A stretch of DNA of 64,000 bases from Methanocella paludicola SANAE (GTDB lineage Archaea; Halobacteriota; Methanocellia; Methanocellales; Methanocellaceae). Positions 19,061 through 56,064 of this stretch are shown here, one piece after another; position 1 is the stretch's first letter; each line of letters opens with the position of its first letter. Both the position numbers and the translations under genes were made by a program. The notes under the pieces were generated by a model. That model ran no database searches. It saw only the letters and a list, made by a program, of their open reading frames with translations, and had not been told where the DNA came from. The stretch lies in NCBI RefSeq assembly GCF_000011005.1, contig NC_013665.1:806001-870000 (forward strand), in the 5' to 3' direction.

Positions 19061-19194
19061 GCAACGACCTTATGGCAATATGCTCCTTAGCACGAATAAT
19101 TTTTCTATCCATCGCCCACCAGTAAGCATTGTTAGATAATAAAAAATAAGACTCTTCCGCGGTTTTGGGATGAATATTTTTTTATTCTTTTCTA

Positions 19195-19512
19195 GTTATG
19201 CCGTCGTTGAGTGGTCCAACCACAGGGGCACGGAGCGCACGGGAGTTACACAGAGTTATTTTTTAATAATTTGAGACTCAGAGAGCTCGGAGGCCGGTTT
19301 ATTAGTTTGCCTGGGGCACAGAGTTTATTGAGGCTCGGTTGACCAATAAACAATAATGCGGTTTATCCTCGCCAGTGCCTCTAACTACTCCGTGCCCCGG
19401 GAATGTTATAAACCCGTCCCCTGTGCCCTCTGGGTCTCCCTTTATAAGATAACTCCGTGAAACTCAGCGCTCTCCGTGCCCCTGTGGTTGGACCACTCAA
19501 CGACGGCATAAC
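19195..19512. repeat. 318-bp inverted-repeat element, empty (MITE-like) form
   Basis: The ends are perfect inverted repeats of 41 bp, beginning GTTATGCCGTCGTTGAGTGG. The inner arms keep imperfect pairing and contain recurring words of the type CACAGGGGCACGGAG and CACAGAG. The same arms, with an 809-bp total length and a GxxExxY gene between them, occur at 52981-53789. Matching blocks include GGTTGACCAATAAAC and CCAGTGCCTCT, which are close together here but flank the gene there. No target duplication is obvious. Non-coding. Confidence 0.88.
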
Positions 19513-19601
19513 ATAAAAACGAGCGAAGGCATCAGCCAAAGCAATATATCATCCCAAAAACGCACAAGAACCAAAAATAAAATGAGTGACGGGCCCAGGA
19601 T

Positions 19602-52980: not shown

Positions 52981-53789
52981 GTTATGCCTTGGTGGCGTGT
53001 CCTTAACCACAGGGGCACGGGGAGCGCAGAGTTCACAGAGATTTTTTTTATAGATGGAGGCTCAGAGGGCACAGGGCCGGTTTATTGGCTTTCCTGGGGC
53101 ACAGAGATTATCGAGGCACGGTTGACCAATAAACAGTTCATGAGGAATAACATATATTTTCATTTTAATGAAAAAACCTATAACCTATTACAATAATTAC
53201 ATTTTTACGAGTAAGGTATTGAAAAAAGATCCCATACTCAATGAGATTAATAAGATCACCGGACAGATCGTTGACGCAGCGTTCGTCGTGCATACGACAT
53301 TCGGGCCGGGACTGCTCGAAAGCATTTACGAGGAATGCTTGATACACGAATTAAAACTCAGAGGCATAAAAGTAGAATCACAGATCAACGTGCCTCTCGA
53401 CTTCAAAGGTTTATACATTGAACGAGGCCTCATCCTCGACGTATTGGTAGAAGGCCAGGTAATCGTCGAAGTAAAATCGGTCAAAGAACTCCACCCCGTC
53501 TACGAACAACAATTACTAACATACATGAAGATAACAGGAAAACGAGTAGGATTATTAATTAACTTTAACGCACCGCTGATAAAAGACGGCATAAAACGAA
53601 TGGTCCTATAAACCATTTTTCCCCACCAGTGCCTCTACAATCTCTGTGCCCCAGGAAAATAAAAAATGAGACTCTGAGTACTCCGTGTCTCAAATTATAA
53701 AAAAGTCTCCGTGAAACTCCCGTGCGCTCTGCGCCCCTGTGGTTGCTCGAATTCGCATCAGCGAAAAGGACACTCAACGACAGCATAAC
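52981..53789. mobile_element. Inverted-repeat element carrying a GxxExxY gene (809 bp)
   Basis: Long inverted arms (52981 to about 53132 and about 53620-53789) match those of the empty element at 19195-19512: ends GTTATGCC..., AACCACAGGGGCACGG, GGTTGACCAATAAAC and CCAGTGCCTCT. Between the arms sits one gene (53168-53611). The right arm has an extra ~20 bases near 53750-53769. Recurring CACAGAG/CACGGAG words at about 10-base spacing run through both arms. No obvious target duplication is seen. Interpretation as a mobile unit rests on this pair of full and empty copies. Confidence 0.75.
53168..53611 (+). CDS. GxxExxY protein (PD-(D/E)XK-like nuclease fold)
   Basis: The product has 147 residues. 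The family signature G-x-x-E-x-x-Y is in TFGPGLLESIYEECLIHELK (about 47-66), and the predicted nuclease core follows: LILDVLVEGQVIVEVKSVKE has the D...E-x-K arrangement (about 101-120), then a QQLLTYMKITG helix. The N-terminal 25 residues are atypical, and a later start is possible. Family members are widespread, small and without a proven function. The gene sits exactly between the two arms of an inverted-repeat element, which suggests that it is cargo or the acting enzyme of that element. It is AT-richer than the host core genes. Confidence 0.88.
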   Translation: MKKPITYYNNYIFTSKVLKKDPILNEINKITGQIVDAAFVVHTTFGPGLLESIYEECLIHELKLRGIKVESQINVPLDFKGLYIERGLILDVLVEGQVIVEVKSVKELHPVYEQQLLTYMKITGKRVGLLINFNAPLIKDGIKRMVL

Positions 53790-53946: not shown

Positions 53947-55041
53947 ATGAAATTTTGCATCATCCTCGGCACACGCCCCGAGATCATTAAAATGAGCCCC
54001 CTCATAAGGGAATGCGAGAAACAGGGCCTGGATTATTTCGTCATTCATACAGGCCAGCACTACTCCTATGAGATGGACAAAATATTTTTTGAGGAGCTTA
54101 AGCTACCCCAGCCGAAATATTATCTTGACGTGGGGTCAGGAAGCCACGGGCACCAGACCGGGAAGATGCTCGCCGGGATCGAGGATGTATTAGTTAAAGA
54201 GAAGCCCGGTATCGTCTATGTCCAGGGCGATACGAATACGGTCCTTGCGGGTGCGCTGGTCGCTTCCAAGCTGCATATCCCGATAGGGCACGTCGAGGCC
54301 GGGCTGCGCTCCTTTGACCGCTCGATGCCCGAAGAGATCAACCGGGTCGTGGCGGACCACGTTTCAGACTACTTATTTGCCCCGACGGAGGCGTCGAAAG
54401 CGCTGCTATTGAAAGAAGGGATACCGGAGAGCAAGATATTCGTCACGGGCAACACGGTCGTTGACGCAGTTTACGAGAACTCGAAGATCGCTGTAAATTC
54501 GGATGTGCTGTCTAAGCTCGGGTTGAAGCCGCGGGAGTACATGCTCTCGACTTTGCATCGTCAGGAGAATGTGGACGATAAGGCACGTTTATCTGAGATC
54601 ATTCAAGGTCTCGGGGAGGTATCTAGAAAGTACGGGATGCCCATCGTGCTGCCGATCCACCCGAGGACGAAGAAGATGATGAACGAGTTCAGCTTACAGC
54701 CGCCCGCCGGTATCATGATGATCGAGCCGCTGGGCTTCATGGAGTTCTTAAAGGCCGAATCGAACGCCCGGCTCGTGCTGACGGACTCGGGCGGAGTGCA
54801 GGAAGAGTGCTGCATCCTGGGGGTGCCTTGTGTCACGATACGTGAAAATACCGAAAGGCCCGAGACAGTGGATGTGGGGGCTAACGTGCTTGCAGGGTAT
54901 AAATGCCAGAATATCGTGAATTGTGCAGGCATGATGATGAATAAAAATAATGGCTGGGTCAATCCCTTCGGCGATGGTAGGACGGGAAAAAGGATCATTC
55001 AATTATCTAGAGGTATAGGGTGTTGCATAATTAGTTTATGA
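53947..55041 (+). CDS. wecB: UDP-GlcNAc 2-epimerase (WecB/WbpI type), C-terminus altered by IS
   Basis: The product has 364 residues from ATG 53947 (an in-frame start at 53917 is too early). It starts KFCIILGTRPEIIKMSPLI, then VIHTGQHYSYEMDKIFFEE, QGDTNTVLAGALVASKL, GHVEAGLRSFDRSMPEEINR and LTDSGGVQEECCILGVPCVT, all family hallmarks. It epimerises C2 of UDP-GlcNAc-type sugars. An IS5-like element enters after codon GGT-ATA: the last eight residues (GCCIISL end) come from the IS, replacing about 11 native residues (IMINQKHYNNL). The catalytic core is untouched, so activity is probably kept. The 157 bases upstream (53790-53946) are AT-rich, with no gene. Confidence 0.9.
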   Translation: MKFCIILGTRPEIIKMSPLIRECEKQGLDYFVIHTGQHYSYEMDKIFFEELKLPQPKYYLDVGSGSHGHQTGKMLAGIEDVLVKEKPGIVYVQGDTNTVLAGALVASKLHIPIGHVEAGLRSFDRSMPEEINRVVADHVSDYLFAPTEASKALLLKEGIPESKIFVTGNTVVDAVYENSKIAVNSDVLSKLGLKPREYMLSTLHRQENVDDKARLSEIIQGLGEVSRKYGMPIVLPIHPRTKKMMNEFSLQPPAGIMMIEPLGFMEFLKAESNARLVLTDSGGVQEECCILGVPCVTIRENTERPETVDVGANVLAGYKCQNIVNCAGMMMNKNNGWVNPFGDGRTGKRIIQLSRGIGCCIISL

Positions 55042-56064
55042 TGGTTGTTCTGGGGCTTTTCTGGTGAATTAGTTGGTGGAGTGCTTGGATTAGTCTTGCG
55101 ATGAGGGTTATGCCGACTTTAACAAGGACTTTTTCTCTTCCAGTGGTTTTTAAGTCTTTTAGGCTTAGCTGTTCCTTGAGTAGGAAATTCGCGTGTTCAC
55201 AATCCATCCTGTTTTTATATAATTGGTCAATCGTTTCTTCGGGGATCTTGAAGTAGTCCTGTATTCGGTATTTGTTCACCGGTTTTCTGGTATTCCTCTT
55301 GTTTCTGGCTGCTATGAATAATACGCCTGCCTCATGGTGGTTTTCTATGTTATCCTTGGTGTCGTAGGCCTTGTCAGCGAGTATTGTATTCACTTTGAAT
55401 AGACGTGCGCCGAGTCTTTTTATCAGTGGCCTGGTCTGAGTGTTGTCGTGACGGTTGGCCCTGGTAACCGTATAACAGACCGGGGTCATGGACCCTAGAT
55501 CGTACAGCAAATGTACCTTGTAGCCGTAATAGTACTTTCTTCTGACATGGTCGAAACCCCAGGCGGCGTCCTCGTCTCGGAGGCTGAAAGCATCCAGTTT
55601 GGTACTGTCGATACCCAGCAGGGACATATGCATAGGCTCCTCATTCATGATTCTCGTGTTAATGATCATCATGATCCTCGGGATATGCCCTCCAAATCGT
55701 TGTTTATACCTGCTAAACAAGGTATGGTCTGGCAACCTGTTGAAGCCAAGATTTTTCATTTTATATTTATCATGGGCTAACCGTACCAGGTTTCTTACCG
55801 AGGTAATACCAGCAAGTTCCATGTACAAAAACGCCCGTAGGAAGGCGATCACACTATACTCCCGGGGCCTGCCCATACAAGGATAACGCTCCAAGAATAC
55901 AAGCAATTGCCAATCAAACGAATCCAGCACCTTGATATGCACATCAGAAAGTATATTTAACTGACAATCAAGACAACTATGGGTTATCAGCAAGCCGTTT
56001 TTACTAAGCATAAACACTGCTTGACCAGATAACCCAAATACTTTCTAAGACTTTTACAACACCC
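55018..56064 (-). mobile_element. IS4/IS5-like insertion sequence in the 3' end of wecB
   Basis: The element is 1047 bp with short imperfect inverted ends (GGGTGTTGCATAA at the left; complement of the right end GGGTGTTGTAAAA) and is flanked by TA on both sides (55016-55017 and 56065-56066), consistent with a 2-bp target duplication. It encodes one DDE transposase on the minus strand. Removing the element and one TA restores an open wecB end that stops at 56100-56102. Confidence 0.88.
55031..56011 (-). CDS. IS4/IS5-like DDE transposase
   Basis: The product has 326 residues from ATG 56011 (GTG 56017 is also possible). The N-terminal DUF772-like part (GRPREYSVIAFLRAFLYMELAGITSVRNLVR) is followed by the first catalytic Asp in MSLLGIDSTKLDAFS (about 136), the second in TILADKAYDTKDN (about 218) and the Glu within the C-terminal KNRMDCEHANFLLKEQLSL segment (Y-2-R-3-E-like region). 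It is full length without internal stops, so probably functional. Codon use is AT-rich compared with host genes. Confidence 0.9.
   Translation of the reverse strand: MLSKNGLLITHSCLDCQLNILSDVHIKVLDSFDWQLLVFLERYPCMGRPREYSVIAFLRAFLYMELAGITSVRNLVRLAHDKYKMKNLGFNRLPDHTLFSRYKQRFGGHIPRIMMIINTRIMNEEPMHMSLLGIDSTKLDAFSLRDEDAAWGFDHVRRKYYYGYKVHLLYDLGSMTPVCYTVTRANRHDNTQTRPLIKRLGARLFKVNTILADKAYDTKDNIENHHEAGVLFIAARNKRNTRKPVNKYRIQDYFKIPEETIDQLYKNRMDCEHANFLLKEQLSLKDLKTTGREKVLVKVGITLIARLIQALHQLIHQKSPRTTIIN

Follow-up and report, generated by a model that had tools for sequence, protein, structure and literature searches.

The window, that is, the whole 64-kb stretch analysed here (positions 806001-870000 of the single 2,957,635-bp contig of Methanocella paludicola), contains a gene of the GxxExxY family enclosed by long inverted repeats and, at another place, a gene-less palindrome of the same sequence family. 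The following features, given in window coordinates, are considered.

52981..53789, + strand: complete gene-bearing element, 809 bp, GTTATGCC...GCATAAC
52981..53134, + strand: left arm, an array of the words CACAGGGG, CACGGGG, CACAGAG, CTCAGAG ..., ending in GGTTGACCAATAAAC
53168..53611, + strand: GxxExxY gene, 147 aa, PD-(D/E)XK_3, with conserved E51, Y54, D91, E101, K103 and Q115
53626..53789, - strand: right arm, the left arm copied in inverse
19195..19512, no strand: 318-bp core palindrome lacking the gene, from the same family as 52981-53789
19150..19572, no strand: composite MITE enclosing the 318-bp palindrome, with ends GACTCTTCCGCGGTTTTGGGAT / ATCCCAAAAACGCACAAGAACC
19142..19149, no strand: left 8-bp target duplication of the composite MITE, AAAAATAA
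19573..19580, no strand: right 8-bp target duplication of the composite MITE, AAAAATAA

An earlier note on this DNA had placed the two copies at 52981-53789 and 19195-19512, which proved exact, and had rightly seen that the arms of the former correspond to the two halves of the latter, with the gene in between. The two arms are inverted repeats of each other, matching over 81 nt at 73% and over 21 nt at 81%, and the halves of gene-less copies match the left arm at 82-86% identity. The block GGTTGACCAATAAAC is located at 53120-53134 in the full copy and at 19337-19351 in the empty copy, and the block CCAGTGCCTCT at 53626-53636 and 19372-19382, respectively; the spacing between the two blocks is 20 nt in the empty copy vs. 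491 nt in the full copy, where the gene is intercalated. A target duplication was looked for at the ends of the gene-bearing element and none was seen. The neighbours of the GxxExxY gene are protein genes, not 23S rRNA, and an Rfam scan of the 64-kb window returned nothing except one tRNA. A DDE transposase gene (DDE_Tnp_1, DUF772), adjoining a UDP-GlcNAc 2-epimerase gene, was also observed at 55031-56017 on the minus strand.

Concerning the protein, its profile matches were limited to PF13366 (PDDEXK_3) in Pfam (E=7e-40, 136 bits vs. a curated cut-off of 22) and to TIGR04256 in NCBIfam (E=2e-41, 141 bits vs. 35), with no match to the Y1 HUH transposases in Pfam or to S23p (TIGR02436) in NCBIfam. 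Invariant or near-invariant residues include G46, G48, E51, Y54, D91, E101, K103 and Q115; among 58 sequences, D91 and E101 are invariant and K103 nearly so, which provides the catalytic residues of a PD-(D/E)XK enzyme. The D...ExK...Q pattern is that of the RecB/lambda-exo/Cas4-like nucleases. The predicted structure is confident (pLDDT 88), and its closest structural neighbours, LHK-Exo, SSO0001 and lambda exonuclease, are weak matches, none of them at E<=0.001 and with TM values of about 0.4-0.5. By its sequence, GxxExxY looks like a DNA nuclease of the RecB/lambda-exo type. Across genomes the distribution of the family is patchy, with 17 TIGR04256 matches in Tangfeifania; the plasmid matches are few (8 records, non-mobilizable). 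The protein tree mixes phyla, with 23 label changes vs. a minimum of 15, in a weakly resolved topology where paralogues alone could cause the mixing. In Chloroflexota, distant GxxExxY-like matches (about 70-92 bits) were observed in frames of 528-571 residues (e.g. G063:C13:11465-11806 and G140:C12:1634-1978), which are possibly domain fusions.

At the level of the whole genome, the family of the window comprises three copies with the gene (100, 96 and 90%) and about 40 without it, and with such numbers the resemblance of the full and empty copies is far beyond chance; the arms, far from being confined to two loci, recur some 40 times. There are six TIGR04256 genes in the genome, all six enclosed by long inverted repeats, which fall into three arm sequence families. 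The CACAGAG-type family, that of the window, accounts for three genes; the locus L061 has distinct arms of 188 bp at 75%; and the CGCGAAG family comprises L065 and L066, with 86-bp arms at 98 and 93%. Many gene-less palindromes are also found in the CGCGAAG family, several of them holding a CACAGAG-type hairpin nested in the loop. Three-layer nesting, with CACAGAG-type hairpins or their MITE inside CGCGAAG-type loops, was observed at G000 644432-645046, 1671063-1671674 and 2474658-2475283, among others (L397, L404, L413).

The palindrome of the 318-bp core is almost perfect (RNA MFE -197 vs. -95 on average after shuffling, z -21). The extent of the young gene-less copies was found by comparison of their flanks, and conservation reaches past this core: the copy in the window is part of a 423-bp element that ends in 22-bp terminal repeats and is flanked by a perfect AAAAATAA duplication, and hence, with terminal inverted repeats and target duplication both present, a MITE. 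The young gene-less copies are flanked by 8-bp AT-rich target duplications, perfect in 14 out of 20, with a mean of 7.5 matches out of 8 vs. 4.3 in shuffled pairs. The 22-bp ends and the target duplication are both absent from the gene-bearing copies, as they are from several of the older gene-less cores. The relation that the earlier note had proposed, an autonomous element and its internally deleted MITE, does not hold for the young copies: an origin of the empty copy by internal deletion of the full one was rejected for them, their terminal repeats and target duplications lying outside the 318-bp core. Since these ends and duplications are missing from the gene-bearing copies, the young gene-less copies in M. 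paludicola have spread as passengers of a MITE, evidently one that belongs to another transposase. A search for an insertion sequence sharing the ends of the composite MITE gave further non-autonomous copies only, near pattern hits. Another non-autonomous variant of ~450 bp, whose terminal repeats are related but whose interior differs, was observed in the same genome (L276, L277).

For the family as a whole, GxxExxY loci were gathered with protein similarity as the sole criterion; a genome collection gave 80, from many phyla, and further loci came from whole genomes and, in five cases, from plasmids, for a total of 152 distinct loci after orientation. Among the 87 loci first tested, C[AG]CN[AG]AG words read in sense average 2.1 per 250 bp upstream, and those read in inverse sense 2.3 per 250 bp downstream, vs. 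0.18 per 250 bp in 1047 control windows. Flanking inverted repeats made of a locus's own arms and significant by shuffling (p<=0.01) were found at 76% of 145 GxxExxY loci vs. 0.7% of 148 control ORFs drawn from the same loci, about a quarter of the GxxExxY loci being without significant arms. GxxExxY genes elsewhere thus do have flanking inverted repeats, and the earlier guess that they generally carry inverted words of the CACAGAG/CACGAAG type is borne out. The upstream tandem arrays show an 8-nt period in 39 of the 58 periodic arms; CACnAAG is the typical 8-nt type, with the variants CACAAAG, CGCAAAG, CACAAAA (Bacteroidota), CGCAGATTA and AACGCTGATG. Arms pair better with their own partner (22.5) than with the arms of other loci (11.7), whereas almost no difference was found for control genes (10.1 vs. 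9.2), and arm similarity climbs with protein identity (Mantel r 0.65, 0 out of 999 permutations). By these measures, the arms and the GxxExxY protein co-diversify and travel together.

The orientation of the 152 loci is strongly biased: between co-directional neighbours, 101 are in sense and 5 in antisense (p=3e-24), and an example is fabD-GxxExxY-fabG in Sphingomonas. The simplest reading of this bias is that an intact gene is kept only where a host transcript reads the element. Because the insertions with intact genes sit in sense between co-directional genes, the GxxExxY gene probably depends on read-through.

Gene-less arrays and hairpins were also analysed in other genomes. Among 151 Chloroflexota genomes, a three-word array is present in 20 out of 33 genomes with the gene vs. 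8 out of 118 without it (odds ratio 21, p=2e-10, a statistic that ignores phylogeny). Gene-negative genomes contain five arrays at most in any of them, high-copy arrays being confined to gene-positive ones. The genome G087, which has two GxxExxY genes, contains 449 arrays, many of them in the form of hairpins, with words unlike those in the arms of the two genes now present. Outer MITE-like ends were found around some hairpins in three bacterial genomes (G087, G148 and G188), other hairpins standing alone; these ends are GTAACTGTTCACACTT in G087:C1 (L285-L291) and TATACTGGGC...TTCAGTATA in G148 (L298-L311). Unrelated DDE transposases alone might be imagined to spread hairpins and genes alike by means of MITEs, GxxExxY doing something else. 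Such a passenger role would agree with these outer ends in the three genomes and with the target duplications of 8 bp and outer terminal repeats of the young gene-less copies in M. paludicola, yet it is very unlikely, given that the MITE ends are missing from the gene-bearing copies, that the word arrays track GxxExxY over many phyla, and that the protein is conserved with its nuclease residues intact.

As for movement, L065 and L066 have identical ORFs and near-identical arms within unrelated flanks. Despite their identical 441-bp genes, the left arms of L066 and L065 differ at several sites, and at most of these L066 matches the gene-less consensus. G002, a relative, carries a ~1.1-kb element, with arms of its own, between two genes that are direct neighbours both in G003 (143 bp apart) and in the genome of the window (88 bp apart). 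The look at empty-site orthologues called for by the earlier note thus found the G002 insertion missing from the syntenic gap in both G003 and M. paludicola, so that at least one insertion differs between species, in a relative and not at the two loci of the window. The short gaps at the corresponding place hold no hairpin, and the base-exact ends of the insertion are not definable, the intergenic DNA being too diverged. G002 also carries many gene-less palindromes with the arms of its element, partly inside tandem repeats. These palindromes (L328-L356) are embedded in tandem arrays of ~53- and 75-bp units (CGAACGCTGCGCTGTGC...). A second GxxExxY gene of G002 is armless and occupies a conserved place, at which G003 has an internally deleted pseudogene (L317:16311-16643 and L322).

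Comparison of the three genes in the window family gives a dN of 0.007 to 0.019 vs. a dS of 0.15 to 0.24, values that indicate strong purifying selection on the GxxExxY protein. Together, the copies compared point to a gene-plus-arms unit that has moved and occurs at new sites, which upholds the mobile unit with gene-less relatives in the same genome that the earlier note had proposed. Purifying selection would equally be expected of an immobile host gene, for instance one of defence or regulation flanked by palindromes acting as terminators or attenuators, and the paralogue L061 gives weak Cas4-like hits in PADLOC. This explanation is barely plausible in view of the patchy distribution, the multiple copies, the identical genes at new sites and the species-specific insertion; in addition, the window protein has no defence-family match among the PADLOC models and no GxxExxY was found in the phage records searched.

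The main rival to an element spreading by its own means is a homing-like invasion of resident hairpins. The hairpins would then be independent and often MITE-borne, and GxxExxY would be an endonuclease that cuts them and enters the loop through recombination between shared arms. The gene-bearing copies do resemble hairpins with a gene in the loop, and the left arm of L066, mostly of the gene-less consensus next to a gene identical to that of L065, looks as if it came from a resident hairpin. However, the outer MITE ends of the gene-less relatives are missing from the gene-bearing copies, the G002 insertion replaces a short gap that holds no hairpin in the relatives, and high-copy arrays were seen in gene-positive Chloroflexota genomes only. 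We consider this type of parasite unlikely.

The same plan was found around a second gene family. TIGR02436, a four-helix bundle and the family to which the S23 proteins of rRNA intervening sequences (IVSs) belong, has genes in 19 of the 20 GxxExxY genomes tested. Significant inverted repeats flank 93% of the 27 TIGR02436 loci analysed, and their arms have a 7-nt period in 16 out of 19 periodic cases, with words such as GTCAAGG, AGTAGAC and GTTGACG; no enrichment in CACnAAG words was found around these loci. Between co-directional neighbours, 22 are in sense and one in antisense. Since TIGR02436 shares the plan with other words, the architecture extends beyond the GxxExxY nuclease, each protein family having its own class of words. 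The earlier description of a mobile element whose only gene is this nuclease stands as regards the unit built around GxxExxY, but is too narrow as regards the architecture. Moreover, TIGR02436 being a four-helix bundle with no evident nuclease, the general motor may be something other than the nuclease, and the TIGR02436 elements suggest that the host may provide part of the mechanism.

The strand bias of both families (101:5 and 22:1) would also be expected if the arms acted in RNA, as in an IVS-type element whose insert is excised from transcripts by RNase III, mobility being RNA-based or rare. The arms fold into very stable RNA hairpins, and in the rRNA IVS of Coxiella the S23 gene, of TIGR02436 type, is located within a hairpin cut by RNase III (PMC4990558). 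Against this, GxxExxY resembles, in sequence, a DNA nuclease of the RecB/lambda-exo type, and the need for expression accounts for the sense bias as well; an RNA-level element is decidedly unlikely.

The explanation that we favour, at slightly better than an even chance, is that the GxxExxY gene, together with the inverted arms on either side of it, would form one mobile element, whose nuclease would recognise and cut the words and whose non-autonomous offspring would be the gene-less hairpins carrying them. The arms, tandem arrays of ~8-nt words inverted around the gene, could pair into a long hairpin. GxxExxY, as a minimal RecB/Cas4-like PD-(D/E)XK nuclease, would recognise the words, probably in hairpins extruded in single-stranded DNA, and would cut or resect the word arrays, thereby initiating their copying; host repair or replication would then copy the element elsewhere without target duplication. 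This mode of action would be akin to that of REPIN/RAYT with a different nuclease class, and we infer the nuclease to be the driver of movement. The youngest gene-less hairpins in M. paludicola would additionally have been captured and spread by the target-duplicating MITE. On a wider scale, a class of word-palindrome elements can be envisaged, each with a small gene between inverted arrays of 7-8 nt words recognised by its protein, with at least two unrelated proteins (GxxExxY, PD-(D/E)XK, 8-nt words; TIGR02436, four-helix bundle, 7-nt words), which would seed many gene-less hairpins in bacteria and archaea; the existence of such a widespread class has, in our estimation, a little less than an even chance.

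Several known systems share part of this organisation. As in REPIN/RAYT, a single small nuclease gene is associated with palindromes that also exist as a gene-less population in the same genome. RAYTs, however, are HUH (Y1) enzymes with GTAG-tagged REPs, as generally known and according to PMC3116915, PMC3733652 and PMC8266576, whereas GxxExxY belongs to the PD-(D/E)XK fold family and its arms are tandem 8-nt words. The 23S rRNA IVSs with S23p (TIGR02436) likewise consist of one small gene within a long hairpin, but the protein fold and the words are different, and the GxxExxY elements that we studied have protein genes as neighbours instead of being inserted in rRNA; TIGR02436 genes outside rRNA follow the plan of the GxxExxY elements, but with 7-nt words. 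Concerning the MITEs of DDE transposases, the gene-less element at 19150-19572 is one of them, while the gene-bearing element has neither MITE ends nor target duplication. Homing endonuclease genes are similar in that a nuclease gene is inserted in a sequence also occurring free of it, but GxxExxY has no intron or intein host and its arms are inverted word arrays. Rpn and other PD-(D/E)XK transposase-like nucleases resemble GxxExxY in being multi-copy with a transposase-like distribution; the window protein, unlike them, matched PF13366 and TIGR04256 only, and we are not aware of word arrays flanking Rpn genes. A search of part of the literature for GxxExxY, TIGR04256, PDDEXK_3, the words and Methanocella MITEs found no account of the element, this partial coverage being the main caveat on novelty, and the papers naming GxxExxY mention the family in passing.

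For TIGR04256/PF13366, a common family without known role, the link with the words supplies a function that can be tested, and the CACGAAG-type hairpins, frequent and so far unexplained repeats, would be accounted for as relatives of a mobile element. The GxxExxY element would be a PD-(D/E)XK counterpart to the HUH-based REPIN/RAYT system, and the parallel with TIGR02436 is relevant to a long-standing problem, the spread of rRNA intervening sequences. Protein families reading words of their own, 7 or 8 nt in length, would be an unusual mode of nucleic-acid recognition.
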